From IMG/VR virus record IMGVR_UViG_3300001450_000038, positions 1 to 58,762 of that record: 58,762 nucleotides of DNA, one strand, 5' to 3'. This stretch comes from a virus. This document shows, one piece after another, positions 10,162 through 25,070 of this stretch. Under the pieces are notes generated by a model. It ran no database searches. It was not told the DNA's origin and worked only from the letters and a program-made list of their open reading frames with translations. A program made the position numbers and the translations under genes. Position 1 is the first letter of the stretch; each line of letters begins with the position of its first letter.

Positions 10162-11196
10162 TTAAACCATACTCAACTTCAAATCATTGTCAACCATTTT
10201 TCTTACGAGACCAATAAAGTCTGTTTTAGGCTTCCAACCCAAGTGCCTTCTAGCCTCCGAAGAATCACCCCAAAGAACTTCTACTTCAGCGGGTCGATAG
10301 AAATCTGGATTAATTTTCATTAGGGTCCGACCTTCATGTAAATATTTTTCCTCCACACCCTTTCCAACCCACTTGCACTCTTCTACAGCGAAGCCAGCGA
10401 AGTTAAACGCTTGTTCTACGAACTCTCTAATAGTATGAGTTTCATTAGAGGATAGAACATATTCCTTAGGCTCTTCTTGGCTCAGCATTAGCCAAATACC
10501 TTCTACGAAGTCCTCAGAATCACTCCAATCTCTTTTCGCGTCAATATTCCCCAACTCAAGAGGTTTAAAATCATTTAAAATATACTCTTTTTTAATGCGA
10601 GCTACATTCTTTGTGATCTTACGAGTAACAAACTCTTCACCACGACGAGTCCCTTCATGATTAAATAACCAGCCCTGTACAGCAAACAAGTCGTAAGAGT
10701 CTCTCCAGACTTTCACCATATGCCTCGCGCTAGCCTTAGAAACCCCATATGGGCTTCTTGGGCGCAGAGGATGAAGTTCTGACTGGGGAGAATATAAAAC
10801 GTCCCCAAACTCTTCTGAGGAGCCAGCATTATAATAACGACAATTAGGGCAATGCTTCCTTATAGCTTCCAACTGGTATAAAACAGCCATTGTGTTCGTT
10901 TCCATGTGATTGACTGGCATCTTCCAGCTAACCCCGACAAAAGAATTAGCAGCAAAGTTAATAAAATAATCTGGCTTCTCTTCTGAAATCACAAGATCTG
11001 TATTTGCTTGGTCTGCAACATCAAGATCAATTAATTTAAATCTAGGATTATCCTTAAGATGAGAAATATTCTCATGGTTTTTGACACTAAGGCGGCGGAC
11101 TCCCGCAATAATAGTATGTTCCGTATTCTCCAAAAGATAGTCTGTCATGAAACTACCGTCTTGACCTGTAACTCCTGTAATTATTACTTTTTTCAT
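10162..11196 (-). CDS. gmd: GDP-mannose 4,6-dehydratase
   Basis: 344 residues, extended short-chain dehydrogenase. NADP-binding GVTGQDGS at 8-15, the GMD-type SSEEFG at 126-131, the catalytic Y150 and K154 in SPYGVSKAS, and LFNHEGTRRGEEFVTRKIT are all GMD signatures. It converts GDP-D-mannose to GDP-4-keto-6-deoxy-D-mannose in the cytoplasm. The next gene, one base downstream, encodes a ColD-like enzyme that would use exactly this product. A related reductase or epimerase is less likely given the FNHE and RRGEEFVTRKIT block. Confidence 0.88.
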   Translation of the reverse strand: MKKVIITGVTGQDGSFMTDYLLENTEHTIIAGVRRLSVKNHENISHLKDNPRFKLIDLDVADQANTDLVISEEKPDYFINFAANSFVGVSWKMPVNHMETNTMAVLYQLEAIRKHCPNCRYYNAGSSEEFGDVLYSPQSELHPLRPRSPYGVSKASARHMVKVWRDSYDLFAVQGWLFNHEGTRRGEEFVTRKITKNVARIKKEYILNDFKPLELGNIDAKRDWSDSEDFVEGIWLMLSQEEPKEYVLSSNETHTIREFVEQAFNFAGFAVEECKWVGKGVEEKYLHEGRTLMKINPDFYRPAEVEVLWGDSSEARRHLGWKPKTDFIGLVRKMVDNDLKLSMV

Positions 11197-12354
11197 TTAA
11201 ATATTATTTAATTTAGAAACCAGTTTTTCAATTTTTGTTTCTCTTAAATTATGGAAAAGGCCCACGTAAAAGCCATTGTGATGTAGATTAATCGAGTTGA
11301 CATAGTCAATTCCATCTTGGAAAAACTCTTTATAGCAAGTTTGATAGCCTAAAAATCCAGATATAATAGGTCTGTATTCTATATCTAGATCTTCACATAT
11401 ACTCAATGCTTTCTTTTTTTTATTACCTTTACATATAATAGGCAGACAAAATGGAACATGTTCTCCGTCTTCTAATTCAGAAGGTAAGTAAAATTTACTT
11501 AAGTCTAGCTTTGATTTAAATACATTATACAATTTCTTTCTAGATTCCGTGTATTTCTGCACTCTTTTCAGATCGAGCATACCAACAAAAGCATTGAAAT
11601 CTGAGTTTCTAAAATTATTACCGAGAGTATGGAAATCAAAAAGACTGTCCACTAATTTGTTCTCATAGCTAGAGGTATCTATATTGTAAGCCTTTAAACT
11701 CCTAACCATGCCATGATTTCTGTTGATTAGATAATATTCATATTCCTTTTTTGAATTAGTGAATATAAAGCCACCCTCAATAGATTGTATTTGATGACCA
11801 AAGTAAGTTGAGGTTGTAGACGTAAAAAACGAAGATACATTTCTGTTATTATAAGTGCCAAATGTATTTTCACAATTATCAAAATTTATATTTACTCCAT
11901 ATTTTCTTTGCAACCTCTGATATTCGCTCATTTTCGGCGTAAATCCAATCAGTGAAGTTGGGAAAACACAAGCTATTCTGTCTTTATTCTCGATAATGAA
12001 ATCTTCCAGTTTAGATAAATCCATAGAAAAATCAGACAAGCACACATCAATAAATTTAGGATTGAACCCCGCTTTAATCCAAGGAGAACAAGATGTCTGC
12101 CAAGTAGTTGAGGGTAATACTATAATATCCCTATCTTTACAAATAGATTTTTGATAATCTGCCAAAAGAGAATTGGCAGTAGACCCGCTTGAAACATAAA
12201 CAGAATATTTGCACCCTACATAATCTGCCATTTTGGATTCAAACTCTTTAACTCTATCTCCTTGAGTCCATCTATTAGCAGGATTCAATATAAATTTGCA
12301 GATCTTGAGCCGATCTAAAAAAGAAAAATTATTAATATTTAAAGGCCAATTCAT
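11197..12354 (-). CDS. ColD-like PLP-dependent GDP-4-keto-6-deoxymannose 3-dehydratase
   Basis: 385 residues, DegT/DnrJ/EryC1 fold. Landmarks: VYVSSGSTAN, the PLP-anchoring Asp in NINFDNCENT (D159), YFGHQIQSIEGG, RNHGMVRS and IEYRPIISG. In aminotransferases of this family a Lys sits six residues before the EGG; here that position is His187. The same Lys-to-His change defines ColD, which removes the 3-hydroxyl from GDP-4-keto-6-deoxymannose, and many flanking motifs also follow ColD. The upstream gene makes its substrate. Product would be GDP-4-keto-3,6-dideoxymannose. No ColC homologue for the last step to colitose is in the window. An inactive aminotransferase is the alternative. Confidence 0.78.
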   Translation of the reverse strand: MNWPLNINNFSFLDRLKICKFILNPANRWTQGDRVKEFESKMADYVGCKYSVYVSSGSTANSLLADYQKSICKDRDIIVLPSTTWQTSCSPWIKAGFNPKFIDVCLSDFSMDLSKLEDFIIENKDRIACVFPTSLIGFTPKMSEYQRLQRKYGVNINFDNCENTFGTYNNRNVSSFFTSTTSTYFGHQIQSIEGGFIFTNSKKEYEYYLINRNHGMVRSLKAYNIDTSSYENKLVDSLFDFHTLGNNFRNSDFNAFVGMLDLKRVQKYTESRKKLYNVFKSKLDLSKFYLPSELEDGEHVPFCLPIICKGNKKKKALSICEDLDIEYRPIISGFLGYQTCYKEFFQDGIDYVNSINLHHNGFYVGLFHNLRETKIEKLVSKLNNI

Positions 12355-13286
12355 AATTTATTATATTGTTCTATTATATTTCTAGCTATAGATACTTTGC
12401 TAAACCTATTCTTATATTCATCACTAAATTTATCTACAAAATCTTTACAATTTTTGTTCCATATTGGATCATTTATTAATTTAGCTATCTTGTCTGAGCA
12501 AGCAGGAACAGAGATACCTGACCAAAATTCTTCACTTGTTGGGTCGTCATCGCAAACAATTATTTTTGTTCGTGCTACAACTGATTCCAAAGCTGGTAAA
12601 CCGACTGATTTAAATGCAGAAGGAAAAAATATATATTCTACAGAGTTGTAAAGAATATTTAAAATTTCATCACTAACTATACCATAATAATTTCCAAACC
12701 TTGGATTTTCTGAACCCACTACAGCCAAAGATTGAGCAGTATCTCCTGACTTTATAATAGTATCTGAAACAATATTGAATCTTTTATTTGGATCGTTGGC
12801 CCTGCCCACATAAAGATATTTGTAATTATCTCCATTTTGATTTTTTATTTTATCATTATCATCTATATCTAGATATGAAACTTCTTTAATTGGATTATAA
12901 ATAACTTCACTCTGTAGGCCACACCAGTTCAATATCTGCCACTGCACTTCCTTGCATATGCATGTTATTAAATCACAATCTTTTAATTTTTTCTTCAGAT
13001 CTGAGGGGTCATAGTTTCTACCATACGGGTTATCTATATAAGGATATCTAGAAATATCGTAGTTCCTGCCATCAATACAATGAGGAGGCAAATCTAAAAC
13101 ATTGTAAATAATTTTAGCTTTAGAATTTTTTATCCTAAAATCTGAGTCATAAGATGATGGATCATTGCAGTAGATTATATCAGCGTCTTCCACCCTTGTT
13201 ATATTGCACCCAAATTCTATAAAACCTTCTCTTATCCTATCTATTTGATTTATGTAGTGCTCAGCTCCAGCGCAGTAAATATTCAT
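12351..13286 (-). CDS. Glycosyltransferase, GT4-like (GT-B fold)
   Basis: 311 residues. The C-terminal half carries the GT4 signatures YVGRANDPNKRFNI (start of the donor-binding domain) and FFPSAFKSVGLPALESVVA, with the nucleotide-sugar-binding glutamate in LPALES. The N-terminal half is a shortened Rossmann domain (MNIYCAGAEHYINQ). It overlaps the ColD-like gene by four bases, so it may use the sugar made by the two preceding enzymes. Donor and acceptor cannot be read from sequence. Confidence 0.7.
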   Translation of the reverse strand: MNIYCAGAEHYINQIDRIREGFIEFGCNITRVEDADIIYCNDPSSYDSDFRIKNSKAKIIYNVLDLPPHCIDGRNYDISRYPYIDNPYGRNYDPSDLKKKLKDCDLITCICKEVQWQILNWCGLQSEVIYNPIKEVSYLDIDDNDKIKNQNGDNYKYLYVGRANDPNKRFNIVSDTIIKSGDTAQSLAVVGSENPRFGNYYGIVSDEILNILYNSVEYIFFPSAFKSVGLPALESVVARTKIIVCDDDPTSEEFWSGISVPACSDKIAKLINDPIWNKNCKDFVDKFSDEYKNRFSKVSIARNIIEQYNKL

Positions 13287-13287
13287 T

Positions 13288-14049
13288 TTAAATTATTTTA
13301 ATCTCTGGTTTAATTTGATTGAATCTACAATAGAAATCGTCGTTAAAACATAATTTGTTTTTTTCTTGATCCCATTTATATGAACAAACTCCATTATATC
13401 TTTTTAGCTGATATTCCACTTTTGCTTTCAAAAACTCATCGGAACCAATCCAAGAATAATGATCAGGAAAACAACTTTCTTTAGGAATTTGCGAGACAGA
13501 AAGGCTTTTATAATCTACAAGATTATTATCGATATTATAAGCAACATCATTTTCATAATAAAAATGACTAAGAGATGTTTTCCCATTAACTTTCGTAGAG
13601 AAAATTCTCGGAGGATTAAAATCTTCTATATATTGATTTTTTGAAAAAACAAAATTTTTAAAGTTTATTTTATATGTCTGACTCTTGGGATTTTCTTTTA
13701 TATATTGGATAGCTTTCTTTATATCTTCTTCTGAATAAAACTCATCTTGATCTAATAGCCATATATAATCAAGATCGTAAGCCATTAAATGTTGTAGAGG
13801 AGAGTTTCTAGAAAAAGAATCATTTGATTCCTTACCCAAACAAATGTAATCTACAAAACCTCTATGCTCTTTCAATAACTGCATGGGAGTTTCTGTATCA
13901 TCAATATCCCATCCGCACTCAACATACTGAGGATACTGATAACTTGAAACAGCAACTTTATTTATCTCTGGTATATTTTTCCAATTTTCTAAACACCTAT
14001 TTGTGTATTGAGGAAATCCATAAAAATTGCACAGTAACCCTATTTTCAT
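13288..14049 (-). CDS. Glycosyltransferase-like protein with DxD motif (GT-A type)
   Basis: About 253 residues from the ATG at 14049, chosen because it forms an ATGA overlap with the upstream gene; a TTG four codons earlier is possible. IWLLDQDEFYSEEDI is a DxD-type metal and nucleotide-sugar site after a strand, typical of GT-A enzymes. The opening, MKIGLLCNFYGFPQYTNRC, resembles family 2 or related proteins. Second transferase of the cassette; substrate unknown. Confidence 0.55.
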   Translation of the reverse strand: MKIGLLCNFYGFPQYTNRCLENWKNIPEINKVAVSSYQYPQYVECGWDIDDTETPMQLLKEHRGFVDYICLGKESNDSFSRNSPLQHLMAYDLDYIWLLDQDEFYSEEDIKKAIQYIKENPKSQTYKINFKNFVFSKNQYIEDFNPPRIFSTKVNGKTSLSHFYYENDVAYNIDNNLVDYKSLSVSQIPKESCFPDHYSWIGSDEFLKAKVEYQLKRYNGVCSYKWDQEKNKLCFNDDFYCRFNQIKPEIKII

Positions 14050-14840
14050 ACTTTTTCCCAAAGTTTTAATCCATGTTTAACCCTACCTCTGGCTTTTAAT
14101 TCTTCTTCTGTAACATCGTGTGTATTAGGATCTCCTCCTGTTGCCTCCACCCAAAAACTATGCCAGAATTTATTAACTTTAAGTCTTTCTTTTAAATCTA
14201 CATAACCTAAATGATATACAAAAGGCGCACCACTTAAGCAATATTGGAGAGCTTTCTTTTCATCATTAAAATCACAGAGAGGGTAAGTTTGAAGTAGCTC
14301 TCCTTTATCATTAATTAACTCGTCAGTACTAGTCTTATTATAATCTGGTCTACCATCTTTCTTTATGGCGAAATTGACTGGACCCCTTTTTAAGCCTCTT
14401 TTATGGATATACCATTTAGCAGCTATGTCTATATAATGATCATAATCTCCATATAAATTTATAACAGGAACAAAGAAAGAAGCATAATCATCAGAAGAAA
14501 GAAGTTGTTCTCCCAGATCTTCAATTATAAACTTCTCTCCTCCTAAACGTTCGTCTAGATTTTGTTGTATTAGCAAATCTCCAGAACAAGCTTGAAGAGC
14601 TAAGTCTTCAGTTTTGCCGTAACAATATGGATCATCGTAAGGAATATTTACAGAAATAACTTTTAAGTTATAATTTTTCTCTTCTCCATACTTCCTAATA
14701 ACAGACTCTGTATCATCAACACTTTTATTAACTGCAATACAAACTTCATCTGCGTAATAAAACCAGTTATCTAAAGCATCCTTGTGATCAAATGCTTTAT
14801 CTAAAATATTGAACGCCGTTGAGTATATGCTAATTTTCAT
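14046..14840 (-). CDS. Glycosyltransferase-like protein (GT-A type)
   Basis: 264 residues. Opens ISIYSTAFNILDKAFDHKDA; then ADEVCIAVNKSVDDTESVIRK matches the GT2 segment holding the donor uridine or guanine, and LLIQQNLDERLGGE gives a DxE acidic motif where the DxD normally lies. An HxxxH-like region near 220-235 (HLGYVDLKERL, FWHSFWVE) may be acceptor-binding. Similar in layout to the two flanking genes, suggesting an expanded GT-A family. Function in glycan assembly is inferred. Confidence 0.55.
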   Translation of the reverse strand: MKISIYSTAFNILDKAFDHKDALDNWFYYADEVCIAVNKSVDDTESVIRKYGEEKNYNLKVISVNIPYDDPYCYGKTEDLALQACSGDLLIQQNLDERLGGEKFIIEDLGEQLLSSDDYASFFVPVINLYGDYDHYIDIAAKWYIHKRGLKRGPVNFAIKKDGRPDYNKTSTDELINDKGELLQTYPLCDFNDEKKALQYCLSGAPFVYHLGYVDLKERLKVNKFWHSFWVEATGGDPNTHDVTEEELKARGRVKHGLKLWEKV

Positions 14841-14842
14841 TA

Positions 14843-15685
14843 TTAAAATTTAATTTGCTTGAAGCAGTTAAAATCATGTTTATCTATAAATCCTTCTTTT
14901 TGTTCTTGTATATTGTATCTATACCAATCATTTAAAAATTTGTCAAAATTTATACACTCTTTTATTTCATCATTTAACCTAAATCTAAAACACTCTTCTA
15001 CAGAAGATATACAAAAAGGATTTAAACCCTCTTTTTTAATAAGCTCTATTAATCTATTGCGGTTTTCATATCTTTTATTTACTAATTCTAAATCGTCTTC
15101 AAATCCCAATAAAAGATGATTGGTGTTATAAAAAAAATAATATTTAAAATTATGATTAATAAAGTGCAAGGGGTCTTGTCTTTTTTCTTCTCTAATATTT
15201 TTTTGATAACCTTCTTCCCAAAAAGGTTGATTTGATAACTCAATTGATTTATTGACTCCGACAATACCTTCGTGAGGATTATTCACAAAAGCAGTTCGTT
15301 CATTAAATTTAAATAATAATCTTTTGTTATGCAGATATACTCCATTTACTCCCGAATAATCTAGATGGCCGCAAATGTGTTTCAATTTGCATGTAAAATC
15401 TGGAGAAAGTCTCTCCAAAGTATCTATTGTAAGAAACCAATCGCCAACTTGCATCCGACTCTGAAATAACGAGTGATTCCTACTGAAGTCTAACCTATTA
15501 CACCATTTGGTATAAATTATTTCTCCCTGACCCTTTACGCTTTCCAGATAATCTGCACCATCATCTTTAGGATAATGAAAGGTCCAAATCAAACCATCAA
15601 AGTGATCTTTAATTGGCTCAATCAATTCTTGAAGATCTTGTTTATGACCTTCTGTAGTTATACCTATTAACCAAAGTTTATTCAT
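14843..15685 (-). CDS. Glycosyltransferase-like protein (GT-A type)
   Basis: 280 residues. MNKLWLIGITTEGHKQDL starts a Rossmann-like strand. DGLIWTFHYPKDDGADYL and GDWFLTIDTLERLSPDF occupy the places of GT-A nucleotide-binding and acidic motifs, though the acidic motif is reduced to DTLE, so metal dependence is uncertain. Abuts genes of the same sort on both sides. Catalytic activity is less certain than for the neighbours. Confidence 0.45.
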   Translation of the reverse strand: MNKLWLIGITTEGHKQDLQELIEPIKDHFDGLIWTFHYPKDDGADYLESVKGQGEIIYTKWCNRLDFSRNHSLFQSRMQVGDWFLTIDTLERLSPDFTCKLKHICGHLDYSGVNGVYLHNKRLLFKFNERTAFVNNPHEGIVGVNKSIELSNQPFWEEGYQKNIREEKRQDPLHFINHNFKYYFFYNTNHLLLGFEDDLELVNKRYENRNRLIELIKKEGLNPFCISSVEECFRFRLNDEIKECINFDKFLNDWYRYNIQEQKEGFIDKHDFNCFKQIKF

Positions 15686-16416
15686 CCTATATGTTCAGAG
15701 TATAATTTTTCTGGATTAAAGAAAGAAAACGGAGTATTGCTATTGCTCATGGGTTTCAAAAGATCTCCAGACATCAACTCACAATGATAAGATCCAAGTT
15801 TATCTAAATGTTGTTGAGCCGCCTTCCACGCAATAAATATTTCGTTAGTCCTACTAATATTAGGTTGGAAAGTAAAGGTGGGGCCATATTGAGTATAATT
15901 TATAGCTTGAGTTAAAATATCTCCAGTCTCGTTATTATGATCTCCATCTGGAGGTCCATATTCTTTACCCCGATTAAATCTAACACAAAGTTGGTCAGGA
16001 TTATTGTCCAGAAATTCTAAGCTTTCTTCAAGGACTTCATTTAAAGATATTTTTGAATTGATCAACCAATCGTCTTCCAACCACAAAGAATATTTTTGTT
16101 TTCTAACTTCTTGATCAGAATACGCTTTATAAATATCCTTGAAATAACCAGCCGAGTGAGATAAATGATTTTCACTGTGATGCACAATCGACTCTTTAGT
16201 CTCGATGACTCTTATACCATACACACAGCAGAAAGATTTTATTTTGTCTGCTACTGATTCCTCTTCGTCTCTAGTCTTTAAATGTAAAACTTTGTTTGAG
16301 AAAAGATTGGGATCTACTTTTTTAAATAGATCTTCAATAACATCTCTGTAAGTATGCTGACCACCATGACCCATGGTAGTGCTAAATAAGATTAAATTTA
16401 ACGGTAGTTTTTTCAT
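15682..16416 (-). CDS. Glycosyltransferase-like protein, first of the minus-strand cassette
   Basis: 244 residues. LWLEDDWLINSK is a clear acidic DxD-like site after a hydrophobic strand, and LPLNLILFSTTMGHGGQHTY opens the fold. It is the first gene after the RNR operon. Its ATG is three bases from an 8-bp perfect stem whose distal arm contains AGAGG, so its translation may be controlled by RNA structure. It starts a run of seven tightly packed sugar genes down to gmd. Donor and acceptor unknown. Confidence 0.5.
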   Translation of the reverse strand: MKKLPLNLILFSTTMGHGGQHTYRDVIEDLFKKVDPNLFSNKVLHLKTRDEEESVADKIKSFCCVYGIRVIETKESIVHHSENHLSHSAGYFKDIYKAYSDQEVRKQKYSLWLEDDWLINSKISLNEVLEESLEFLDNNPDQLCVRFNRGKEYGPPDGDHNNETGDILTQAINYTQYGPTFTFQPNISRTNEIFIAWKAAQQHLDKLGSYHCELMSGDLLKPMSNSNTPFSFFNPEKLYSEHIG

Positions 16417-19546: not shown

Positions 19547-20143
19547 GTGATCAATAATCTCTCAGATTCCGATTTAACTGTATTAATTAGAGAAGATAAT
19601 GACGAAATAGCCTTGAACGAGCTAATCTCTAGACATTCAGGTATTTACGTTGACATGCTTAAAAAGTTTGGTTCAAATTGCCTGACCAGAAATCAAGTCT
19701 GCGATATAATGGGCGAAAAAGATTATGTAATCTACAAAGCTGCTCTAGAATATGATGAAAATAGGGCTAAGTTTTCCACTCATTTGGCAAATAAGACGAA
19801 ATATATGTGCCTTACTCAGAAGACTAAAAACAAGAATAATAGGGTCACTTCAAATTTTGATGAAATACAATTTTGTCAAAAAGACAAGAGTCACACTCCA
19901 GACCAGTCTTGTAATATGAATGATTCGTTTTCTAGGATCATTAATCTGATTGAAAAACATCAAGATAGCCGCTTAAAAATAATCTTTCACGAGAGGTATT
20001 TTTGTGGTAAGAGGGGCAAATTAAAACCTTGGAAGGAAGTTGCTGATATATTAAATCTCTCAGCACAAGGTTGCATAAATATTCATGACAAAGCAGTGTT
20101 AGAATTAAATCAAAAAATAGATAATGAAAAGATTAAATTTTGA
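19547..20143 (+). CDS. RNA polymerase sigma-70-family-like factor
   Basis: 198 residues, start GTG (no other start nearby; promoter immediately upstream). A region 2-like helix set runs about 18-95 (DEIALNELISRHSGIY, YKAALEYDENRAKFSTHL), and a region 4-like helix-turn-helix lies near 150-190 (WKEVADILNLSAQGCINIHD). Size and layout fit phage-encoded or ECF-like sigma factors that redirect host RNA polymerase. First gene of the plus-strand island, next to an operator cluster. A second such protein is encoded at 56270-56947. Confidence 0.6.
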   Translation: MINNLSDSDLTVLIREDNDEIALNELISRHSGIYVDMLKKFGSNCLTRNQVCDIMGEKDYVIYKAALEYDENRAKFSTHLANKTKYMCLTQKTKNKNNRVTSNFDEIQFCQKDKSHTPDQSCNMNDSFSRIINLIEKHQDSRLKIIFHERYFCGKRGKLKPWKEVADILNLSAQGCINIHDKAVLELNQKIDNEKIKF

Positions 20144-21209
20144 AGGGCCAATAAACTCACTCAGTTTAGGGAATGTAACAGTAAATATTCTAAGAGAACT
20201 AAAAGAAAGAGACCTTGAAATATCCTTCTTTCCCGTAGGAGATAAAGGTGATTTTTCCGCTTACGACAAAATATCCAAAGATTTCCAGCAATGGGTTAGT
20301 AATATTTCAGCTACTAGACTTAAAAAATTAGACAAAAATACGCCATCCTTAAAAGTTTGGCATATTAATGGTTCAGAAAAAGTTCTGCCTAATCAATTCC
20401 TTTATACTTTTTATGAACTTGATTCCCCTACGGAAGAAGAAGTAAATATAGTCAAACTACAAAAACATGTATTTTTCTCATCATCAGAAGCCTCGCAAGC
20501 CTTCAAAGACAAAGGCTGCAATAATGTTAGTCATGTCCCTCTTGGTTTTGATCAGGATTTCCAAGAAACGAAAAAAGAATATCTAAAGGATACAATCCAT
20601 TTTGGTTTAGTGGGTAAATTTGAAAGAAGGAAAAATACTCAGGCTATTATAAAATTGTGGACTCAGAAATTTGGTAATAACCCCAAATATCAATTATCCT
20701 GTCTTGTCGCGAACCCATTTTTAAATGGAGACCAAATGAATCAAGCGATTAATAATTCTCTTAGTGGGCAAACTTGGTCAAACATTAATTTTTTACCTCA
20801 CTTAAAAACAAATTCTGAAGTAAACGATTTTACAAATTCAATTGATATCGATCTTTCTGGACTTTCAAATGGAGAAGGTTGGAATCTTCCCGCTTTCAAT
20901 GCAACAGCTCTTGGTAAATGGTCTGTAGTTAGCAATTGTTCCTCCCATAAAGATTGGGCAACGGAAGATAATAGTATTCTTGTAGATCCAATTGGCAAAC
21001 AACCTTGTTATGATAACTTCTTTTTTAAAGAAGGGATGCCTTTTAATCAGGGAGAATATTATAAATTAAATGCAGATGATATTGAAAAAGGTTTTGACAA
21101 AGCCCTAGAGAAAGTGGGACAAAAAAACACAGATGGGACAAAATTGCGCGACATGTTTACATATTCTAAGAGCGTAGATGCTATTTTATCTCGTATCTAT
21201 GAGGATTAG
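20124..21209 (+). CDS. Glycosyltransferase, GT4-like
   Basis: 361 residues. The C-terminal half has FGLVGKFERRKNTQAII and LSNGEGWNLPAFNATALG, the donor-binding strand and E-x7 region of GT4 enzymes. WHINGSEKVLP and FYELDSPTEEEV belong to the acceptor-side domain. Overlaps the sigma-like gene by 20 bases, so probably co-transcribed from 19510. Substrates unknown. It is related in style to the GT4 domain at 23355-25070. Confidence 0.72.
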   Translation: MKRLNFEGPINSLSLGNVTVNILRELKERDLEISFFPVGDKGDFSAYDKISKDFQQWVSNISATRLKKLDKNTPSLKVWHINGSEKVLPNQFLYTFYELDSPTEEEVNIVKLQKHVFFSSSEASQAFKDKGCNNVSHVPLGFDQDFQETKKEYLKDTIHFGLVGKFERRKNTQAIIKLWTQKFGNNPKYQLSCLVANPFLNGDQMNQAINNSLSGQTWSNINFLPHLKTNSEVNDFTNSIDIDLSGLSNGEGWNLPAFNATALGKWSVVSNCSSHKDWATEDNSILVDPIGKQPCYDNFFFKEGMPFNQGEYYKLNADDIEKGFDKALEKVGQKNTDGTKLRDMFTYSKSVDAILSRIYED

Positions 21210-22780: not shown

Positions 22781-23374
22781 ATGAAATTTACTCTTTATAA
22801 GCCAAACTCTAAAAATGCAGGATCTGCATTCAGTTTTGATATCGCAAAAGACAAGAAGGGAAATGCAGTTATGTACGTCTCTATGATTCAACAACATAGC
22901 TGGAATGATCAAACTAAAAGCGGGTCTTTTAAAGAAAATGCTAAAAATCCAGAAAAGTCTGGAACCATTAAGTTAACAGCTAATGAAGCTGGAGAAATTT
23001 TATCTTCACTAAAAACCAGAATCCCTTTTGTAGCATTCCATAGACGGGATAAAGACACTACGATCATTAAATTCACCCCTTGGGACAAAAAAAGAAAAAT
23101 CATGAATAAAAATGGGGAAGAATGGCTTGAAACCCCTGCATTTGGGTTCACGGTAACGAGAAATTCTTCTCAGATATTCAAGCTTCCTCTAGAAGCTGGA
23201 GAAACAGAAGTTCTTGGAGAACTAATGAAAAAGTATATTTTAGACTCTTTTTTTGTCGCTGACGCTTATCAGAATCAAAAACCCAAATACGAAAAGAAAG
23301 AATACGAAAAAAAACAATACGAAGAGCCAAAACAAGAGGTAACTGAAGACGAAGATGACGGAGTCCCATTCTAA
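22781..23374 (+). CDS. Single-stranded DNA-binding protein
   Basis: 197 residues. An N-terminal beta-rich domain (MKFTLYKPNSKNAGSAFSF, then MYVSMIQQHSW and FVAFHRRDKDTTIIKF) is followed by a lysine, glutamate and tyrosine-rich linker. The last nine residues, EDEDDGVPF, closely resemble the DDDIPF tip by which bacterial SSB recruits repair and replication proteins. The core is not an obvious bacterial OB-fold and is closer to phage-type SSBs. It would coat ssDNA at the phage fork. Overlaps the next gene by 20 bases. Confidence 0.7.
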   Translation: MKFTLYKPNSKNAGSAFSFDIAKDKKGNAVMYVSMIQQHSWNDQTKSGSFKENAKNPEKSGTIKLTANEAGEILSSLKTRIPFVAFHRRDKDTTIIKFTPWDKKRKIMNKNGEEWLETPAFGFTVTRNSSQIFKLPLEAGETEVLGELMKKYILDSFFVADAYQNQKPKYEKKEYEKKQYEEPKQEVTEDEDDGVPF

Positions 23375-25070
23375 AAAACTAAGGGTCTTAATACACTCTA
23401 ATCATAGCAGACTTGTTACGGGGTTTGGGAAAAATGCTAAAAATATTTTGTTAGCATTACATAATGACCCACACATTGAAGTGATTGAAGCTGGAAATGG
23501 CGCGAAATTTGGAGCCGACTTACTGACTCCTTGGGAGTCTTATGGGACTCACCCCAGTGATCCATCATTCTTAAGATCAATCCGAGGGGACGGGCCGAAA
23601 GAAAGAATGGCTCAATATGGTTACTATACGATAGATGAAATTGTAGAAAAATCTAAACCAGATGTATATCTTGGGATTGAAGATATTTGGGCCTTTGCCG
23701 AATATCACAAAAAACCTTGGTGGAATAAAATTAACAAAGTTCTTTGGACGACTTTAGATAGCCTCCCGATATTGGATCAAGCAAAACAAATGGAGCCTCA
23801 CTGTGATAAGATGTTAGTGTGGGCATCATTTGCAGAGGAAGAAATGAAGAAGCTTGGACACAAAAATGTAGAGACAATTCATGGTGCTGTCGATTACTCT
23901 CATTTCAAACCAATGGATTATAGATCTGCTGTAAGAAAGAGATTTGGTTTAGACTCAAGTTATGTAATAGGATTTGTTTTCAAGAACCAATTGAGGAAAT
24001 CAGTACCGAATCTTTTAGAAGGATTTAAGATTTTCAAAGAAGAAAACCCGAATGTTAATGCAAAATTACTATTGCATACAGATTGGGGGGAAACATCTCA
24101 TGGCTGGGACATACCAAGGTATCTTAAAGAAATGGATATTGATCAGGATGATGTATTGTCCACTTACCTTTGCCATGCTTGTGATTATTACCACATTGCA
24201 CCTTATCAAGGAGAAGACAAGGACTGTCCACGTTGTAAAAAAGAAAAATCGTTTAAAACTAAAAATAGCGCAAAGGGGATTAATGAAAAACAGTTGAACG
24301 AACTCTATAATTGTATGGACGTTTATTGTCATCCATTTACAAGCGGAGGGCAAGAGTTACCGATTCAAGAGGCTAAAGCAGCGGGTCTAGTGACTTTAGT
24401 CACGGAATATTCCTGTGGAACAGATTCGTGCTATGAACATCAAGGAGGAATCCCTCTTAAATGGAATTCATATAGAGAACCCAGCACCCAGTTTATTAAA
24501 GCATCGACTTGTCCGAAGGATATAGCTGCAAAGTTAAAAATGGCGCGAGGGATGACAGAAGTTGATACTATGGTTCTAGCGGAGAAGGGGATAGAATACG
24601 TAAAGAAGGAGTTTTCAGTACAATCTACAGTAGAAAAACTGAAGAAAGTCCTATTAAACCTAAAAAAACCCGAAGTTAAAGAAGAAGAGGCTAAAGACTC
24701 CCCCAAGACTTTAGGGATTGAAGATGTATTAGGCGATGAAGGCATTTCTAATAGAATCGCCGTTGTTCTTCCTGAATCAGCTGGAGATATTCTCATCCTA
24801 AATTCTTTAATGAAAAATCTTAAAGATTTATATCCAGAAAAAAATATATACGTATTTACTAAACCCCAGTTTTATCAAATGATTGAGGATAATCCAAGCG
24901 TTCATAAAATCCTTCCATATCAAGATAGTCTTCAAAACCTATTAATGCTAGAAGGGAAGGGAGACCATCAGGGGTATTTTGACATGGCTTTTTTACCTAA
25001 TATCGGGACGCAAAAACATTTAAACTATCTTCATAACGGTAAAGATAAAACACAATTTGAGTTACGATGA
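23355..25070 (+). CDS. GT4 glycosyltransferase with zinc knuckle, fused to the N-terminal half of a GT9 domain
   Basis: 571 residues. Residues 8-440 form a GT4 enzyme: VTGFGKNAKNILLAL, FVFKNQLRKSVPNLLEGFK, and SGGQELPIQEAKAAG with the E-x7-E donor site. Inside it, CHAC near 273 and CPRC near 293 make a zinc knuckle, an unusual insertion. After a charged linker, residues from about 465 form the first Rossmann half of a GT9 (heptosyltransferase) domain: RIAVVLPESAGDILILNSL, then VHKILPY. The ORF ends in ATGA, and the second GT9 half follows in the next frame. It may be one enzyme made as two chains. Confidence 0.72.
   Translation: MTESHSKKLRVLIHSNHSRLVTGFGKNAKNILLALHNDPHIEVIEAGNGAKFGADLLTPWESYGTHPSDPSFLRSIRGDGPKERMAQYGYYTIDEIVEKSKPDVYLGIEDIWAFAEYHKKPWWNKINKVLWTTLDSLPILDQAKQMEPHCDKMLVWASFAEEEMKKLGHKNVETIHGAVDYSHFKPMDYRSAVRKRFGLDSSYVIGFVFKNQLRKSVPNLLEGFKIFKEENPNVNAKLLLHTDWGETSHGWDIPRYLKEMDIDQDDVLSTYLCHACDYYHIAPYQGEDKDCPRCKKEKSFKTKNSAKGINEKQLNELYNCMDVYCHPFTSGGQELPIQEAKAAGLVTLVTEYSCGTDSCYEHQGGIPLKWNSYREPSTQFIKASTCPKDIAAKLKMARGMTEVDTMVLAEKGIEYVKKEFSVQSTVEKLKKVLLNLKKPEVKEEEAKDSPKTLGIEDVLGDEGISNRIAVVLPESAGDILILNSLMKNLKDLYPEKNIYVFTKPQFYQMIEDNPSVHKILPYQDSLQNLLMLEGKGDHQGYFDMAFLPNIGTQKHLNYLHNGKDKTQFELR

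Follow-up and report, generated by a model that had tools for sequence, protein, structure and literature searches.

A phage gene pair predicted to encode consecutive steps towards a GDP-3,6-dideoxyhexose

Why would a phage encode GMD directly beside a DegT-family protein that has histidine at the position of the PLP-binding lysine, and which sugar would the two enzymes make? 3,6-Dideoxyhexoses are known mainly as bacterial O-antigen determinants, and colitose is a bacterial surface sugar. The gene pair lies on a linear IMG/VR virus record of 58,762 bases (the whole of this stretch is referred to here as the window), which also encodes a terminase large subunit, a family B DNA polymerase, a primase, an exonuclease, and RecA-like and DnaB-like genes. 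Both genes are on the minus strand, the GMD ORF at 10162-11196 (344 aa) and the ColD-like ORF at 11197-12354 (385 aa). We consider it probable that they encode consecutive steps in the synthesis of a GDP-3,6-dideoxyhexose, with the reductase and glycosyltransferase steps proposed below.

The minus-strand gene order is five glycosyltransferase-like or unassigned genes (from 16416 down to 12351), then the ColD-like ORF, the GMD ORF, and the RecA-like and DnaB-like genes. The TAA stop of the ColD-like gene directly abuts the GMD ATG, and the start of the ColD-like gene is overlapped, as ATGA, by the glycosyltransferase gene at 12351-13286. Given this order and the tight junctions leading into the ColD-like gene and then GMD, the glycosyltransferases are upstream in transcription. 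The preliminary description had the pair followed by several glycosyltransferases; the five genes do lie at higher coordinates, yet they are transcriptionally upstream, and for only two of them is the evidence reasonable, i.e. a GT4-type glycosyltransferase (12351-13286; PHROG 2170 at 4.6e-6, and PF00534 in six of eight homologues, best 1.4e-11) and a GT2-like glycosyltransferase (13288-14061; PF00535 at 2.4e-4, best homologue 6.2e-6). Two others are probable GT2-like glycosyltransferases on weak evidence: 14046-14840 has no match itself (PF13704 matched one homologue at 2.4e-6), and 14843-15685 matched the SunS-type model TIGR04195 at 3.6e-5, with PF00535 in two of eight homologues (best 7e-4). 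The first gene of the apparent operon (15682-16416) had no Pfam, NCBIfam or PHROG match and is left unassigned; all five are on the minus strand. Promoter-like sites in the region were not above shuffled expectation and terminator-like sites were barely above it. Comparison with a 91%-identical relative (L004) gave dN/dS values of 0.098 for GMD and 0.042 for the ColD-like gene, i.e. both are under purifying selection.

The first of the two enzymes was readily recognized. The 344-residue protein matched Pfam GDP_Man_Dehyd (PF16363) at 1.1e-101, its best PDB match among GMDs was 2z1m (1.5e-81), and it contains the motifs TGVTGQDGS, SPYGVSK, FNHEGTRRG, FVTRKI and FYRPAEV, with the NAD-binding and SPYxxxK motifs among them; the earlier identification as GMD therefore holds. 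Its TIGR01472 (gmd) score was 315 bits, which is under the 415-bit equivalog cut-off of that model, and we therefore name it a divergent GMD-like enzyme rather than a certified equivalog. Most of the GMDs of its viral relatives also score below this cut-off.

A PDB sequence search with the 385-residue protein gave E. coli ColD (2gms, 2.6e-37) as the best match, ahead of E1 (1.7e-21) and perosamine synthase (1.6e-16). The protein has the DegT/aspartate-aminotransferase fold, as indicated by its match to PF01041 (1.8e-42) and by an AlphaFold model (pLDDT 96.4) for which 61 relatives were used. ColD was the top Foldseek match of this model (best chain, E 1e-32) and also had the highest VIA Z score (47.3), followed by perosamine synthase (44.8) and E1 (44.4). 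The gap between ColD and perosamine synthase is modest, and the choice between them was therefore not made on fold alone. In the viral fold library nothing viral was closer than giant-virus aminotransferase-fold proteins.

The PLP-lysine position is occupied by His187 (codon 187, CAT on the minus strand, at 11794-11796; context FGHQIQSIEGG), which aligns with His188 of E. coli ColD, an enzyme with solved structures of its H188N and H188K/S187N variants. Although the position of this histidine had been left out of the search patterns used to find relatives, its equivalent was kept in 80/80 viral loci and 61/61 aligned relatives, and the same histidine was present in all of the cellular relatives scored. 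The equivalents of ColD His188, Trp88, Asp159, Ser183 and Asn248 were invariant in 61 sequences; the last four have roles in ColD. The preliminary description had treated His187 as the hallmark of ColD: the histidine is indeed at the lysine position, but by itself it is not diagnostic, because a histidine there is common to E1/RfbH and SpnQ as well (PMC8987622).

In a maximum-likelihood tree of 45 sequences, support was 100/100 for the split between His enzymes and Lys aminotransferases, and 99/98 for the split between the Fe-S enzyme E1/RfbH and the ColD half of the His enzymes. Grouping with amino-transferring enzymes was checked on this tree, and the window protein falls with ColD, apart from perosamine synthase, QdtB and the other Lys enzymes. 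Within the ColD half it belongs to a virus-dominated clade whose stem is long (1.17 changes per column) and whose neighbours are cyanophage, Bacteroidota and Legionellales proteins. From sequence, tree and modeled fold, the ORF at 11197-12354 is predicted to encode a ColD-type PLP/PMP 3-dehydratase, most specifically a GDP-4-keto-6-deoxymannose 3-dehydratase.

The neighbourhood of the gene in other genomes bears on its substrate. Of 50 related contigs, 38 carry GMD and none carries CDP-glucose 4,6-dehydratase, which favours a GDP-linked substrate. A strong GMD was found in 58 of 84 loci; GMD-like sequence occurred in 247 of 50,697 phage records, and in a bacterial positive control GMD lay within 3.5 kb in 46 of 73 ColD-type loci. 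Together with the position in the tree and the best structural match to ColD, the contig counts support the two-step route to GDP-4-keto-3,6-dideoxymannose put forward in the preliminary description, with catalysis and the suggested surface remodelling as predictions.

In the ColD reaction the sugar forms a Schiff base with PMP, the histidine takes a proton and the C3 hydroxyl leaves; the enamine is then hydrolysed to a 4-keto-3,6-dideoxy sugar, and glutamate regenerates PMP (PMC8987622). The viral proteins fit this route, as they keep the histidine and lack the cysteine stretch of E1 in the region compared. In the proposed pathway, GMD would convert GDP-mannose to GDP-4-keto-6-deoxymannose, and the ColD-type enzyme would remove the C3 hydroxyl, with His187 as the acid/base and PMP regenerated from glutamate. 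Hydrolytic release would then give GDP-4-keto-3,6-dideoxymannose without the Fe-S cluster and reductase of E1. The products of the upstream glycosyltransferase genes would attach the sugar either to a glycan of the host surface or to the virion.

A pathway to a finished sugar also needs a reductase and, as previously noted, no recognisable one is encoded in the window. The search for a ColC-like gene was extended to the near-identical contig G001 (79.6 kb), which adds ∼21 kb to the window, and neither ColC nor GMER was found there; such a gene was found beside ColD only in other viruses, where it is of GMER type, i.e. in cyanophages and many other relatives. A whole-contig profile search gave strong GMER-type matches on 16 of 50 contigs, and none on the close relatives of the window or on clade members of 132, 140 (G009), 203 and 209 kb. 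The complete colitose set (GMD, ColD and ColC together) was therefore found neither in the window nor in G001 or the close subclade. The reductase is likely to be absent from the window-lineage virus, although because all of the contigs are fragments this does not prove its absence from the whole virus. As no reductase was found in the window lineage, the supported product is GDP-4-keto-3,6-dideoxymannose; its reduction would depend on the host, on an unrecognised enzyme or on a part of the genome outside the contigs sequenced. A second SDR of G001 (L014:16615-17496) was rejected as ColC, as it matched ADP-heptose 6-epimerase (TIGR02197) at 2e-65 and GDP-fucose synthase very weakly. G001 carries this HldD-like epimerase gene together with an HldE-like kinase and nucleotidyltransferase as separate genes (L014:9307-10565), which suggests from sequence a phage ADP-heptose route; the heptose-epimerase profile also matches the contigs G008 and G014 strongly.

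Elsewhere among the viruses, a GDP-fucose-synthase-type (GMER-type) epimerase/reductase, which is an SDR, immediately adjoins the ColD gene in 28 of 84 loci. In the cultured cyanophages ACG-2014f and S-CAM7 the GMD, GMER-type and ColD-type genes are consecutive and are followed by a GT11-family gene. In these cyanophages and many related viruses the GMER-type enzyme probably finishes the sugar, giving GDP-L-colitose or a stereoisomer. In a tree of the adjacent viral SDRs, these formed several separate lineages within the GMER family. None fell inside the bacterial ColC clade; they sat on other GMER branches, were rejected as ColC orthologues and are therefore labelled GMER-type. It is possible that they nevertheless work like ColC, and some could instead make GDP-L-fucose from the same intermediate. 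Repeated recruitment of such SDRs beside ColD supports a shared pathway, but is no proof of a ColC role. On one contig (G005) the GMD and GMER-type genes adjoin each other (L020:6592-8602) ∼40 kb from its ColD-like gene (L007). A gene for a NodU-type carbamoyltransferase (e.g. L006:7226-8842) lies near the ColD-like gene in ∼10 viral loci, a hint of carbamoylated sugars.

The alternative that survives best accepts a true 3-dehydratase and has the window lineage drifted to another GDP-linked product, or to a keto-sugar that its glycosyltransferases use directly. The virus clade carries specific residues near the active site, at protein positions 174, 181, 183 and 191 (including Thr181, Thr183 and Ser191), and a two-residue deletion before Ser182; with the long stem, these changes make substrate drift possible, and no reductase was found in contigs of up to 209 kb. 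However, other members of the same clade adjoin GMD and a GMER-type reductase, and the contigs are incomplete, so that we regard such drift as unlikely, while giving it more weight than any of the alternatives that follow. Somewhat easier to entertain, although still tentative, is a wider reading of the family as a whole, in which a virus-dominated group of GDP-sugar C3-dehydratases, found across large aquatic phages, provides the 3,6-dideoxy sugars of glycans specific to the phage (for masking of the host surface or decoration of the virion), and the window lineage, having no virus reductase, relies on an enzyme of the host or else transfers an unusual dideoxy sugar, either a keto form or one modified in some other way.

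The pair could also act on GDP-heptose instead of GDP-mannose. ColD homologues of Campylobacter jejuni act on GDP-6-deoxy-4-keto-heptose (PMC10440746), and family membership alone therefore does not fix the substrate. The GDP-3,6-dideoxyheptose pathway of C. jejuni HS:5 resembles the viral pair in that a GDP-sugar 4,6-dehydratase is followed by a ColD-family PLP C3-dehydratase, and G001, as described above, has ADP-heptose-type genes. However, the HS:5 pathway starts with a GDP-heptose dehydratase that is only distantly similar to the GMD of the window, which matched GDP-heptose 4,6-dehydratase (7us5) at 2.5e-23 as against 1.5e-81 for GMD. The heptose genes that were seen resemble the ADP route and not the GDP route, and heptose-epimerase-like genes at E<=1e-25 were on only 6 of 50 contigs. 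With GMD adjacent, mannose is the likeliest source, and use of heptose is improbable.

Less probable again is that the ColD-like protein is an E1/RfbH-type CDP-4-keto-6-deoxyglucose 3-dehydrase making paratose- or abequose-type sugars. E1 shares the PMP chemistry and the histidine, which serves as its catalytic base, and the S-CAM7 copy is annotated as CDP-4-keto-6-deoxyglucose 3-dehydrase; six of the 50 related viral contigs do carry true RfbH-type genes. However, E1 depends on a [2Fe-2S] cluster together with a reductase, acts on a CDP-linked substrate and forms the separate clade described above. The window protein scored 115 bits against the NCBIfam RfbH model (cut-off 423), and in the region compared with the Cys-rich stretch of E1, between His214 and Phe241, no Cys was present in 43 of 44 viral-clade rows. 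Its direct neighbour is GMD, and none of the related contigs has the CDP-glucose 4,6-dehydratase that this chemistry would call for. The six RfbH/E1-type genes on viral contigs, which are present there besides the ColD-type gene, are L065:13447-14763, L069:2851-4176, L079:4027-5352, L087:5077-6387, L090:1814-3142 and L100:11814-13121, four of them above the NCBIfam cut-off.

Weakest of all, and strongly disfavoured, is a perosamine-synthase-type sugar aminotransferase that would turn the GMD product into GDP-perosamine: the Pfam family and PHROG 3139, to which the protein belongs, are both named aminotransferase and the fold closely resembles that of perosamine synthase, but the lysine needed for transamination via an internal aldimine is His187 here and histidine in all 80 viral relatives, the tree puts the Lys enzymes on the other side of a 100/100 split, and by sequence the protein matches ColD much better.

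The predicted ColD-type pathway has close parallels in known systems. It resembles the GMD-ColD-ColC colitose pathway of E. coli O55 and Yersinia pseudotuberculosis in its first two enzyme types, the His-for-Lys change, the expected GDP-linked intermediate and gene adjacency; in contrast, the window pair is phage-encoded, its second protein is 26-28% identical to ColD and sits in a separate long-stem virus clade, and its lineage lacks ColC. The cassette of Synechococcus phages ACG-2014f and S-CAM7 (GMD, GMER-like, ColD-like, GT11) is likewise phage-borne and places GMD and a ColD-type enzyme beside glycosyltransferases, but its ColD-like protein is 31-32% identical, belongs to a neighbouring clade shared with bacteria and has an adjacent epimerase/reductase. 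Cyanophages such as S-SCSM1 and S-SKS1 also carry nucleotide-sugar genes that start from GDP-mannose, GMD and GDP-L-fucose synthase, which have already been described (PMC9602691); theirs is a fucose route, and a C3-dehydratase was absent from the stretches read.

The phage gene module is thus real and widespread, its chemistry is well predicted and its function putative. The viral auxiliary genes of a marine survey include gmd, fcl and ascC/ddhC/rfbH (PMC10653327), and some of its ddhC calls may belong to the ColD-type virus family. Among open-licence papers on phage colitose or dideoxy sugars we found no report of an assembled pathway. Our results suggest that a route to 3,6-dideoxyhexoses is encoded in phages, cultured cyanophages among them, and they correct a recurrent annotation in deposited phage genomes, where these proteins appear as aminotransferase, hypothetical protein or CDP-sugar dehydrase. 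If the route operates as predicted, this kind of surface-sugar chemistry would have a viral reservoir, and it could alter the adsorption of competing phages or disguise virions.

A megablast search of phage records with window positions 20000-44000 found nothing, and that part therefore has no known close relative in culture. Two more glycosyltransferases (PHROG 2170) are encoded on the plus strand at 20124-21209 and 23355-25070, a second glycan gene group past the ribonucleotide reductase genes. The family B DNA polymerase seems to be split between 471-3032 and 3633-4331, which are separated by another ORF; an N-terminal part and a main part align with different ends of PHROG 405. Outside the viruses, two Hydromonas genes (L103:4094-5254 and L102:5244-6485) nest inside the virus-dominated ColD clade; the first is on a chromosome-like contig, flanked by ordinary chromosomal genes and accompanied by two glycosyltransferase-like genes, a context that suggests virus-to-bacterium transfer or an island.
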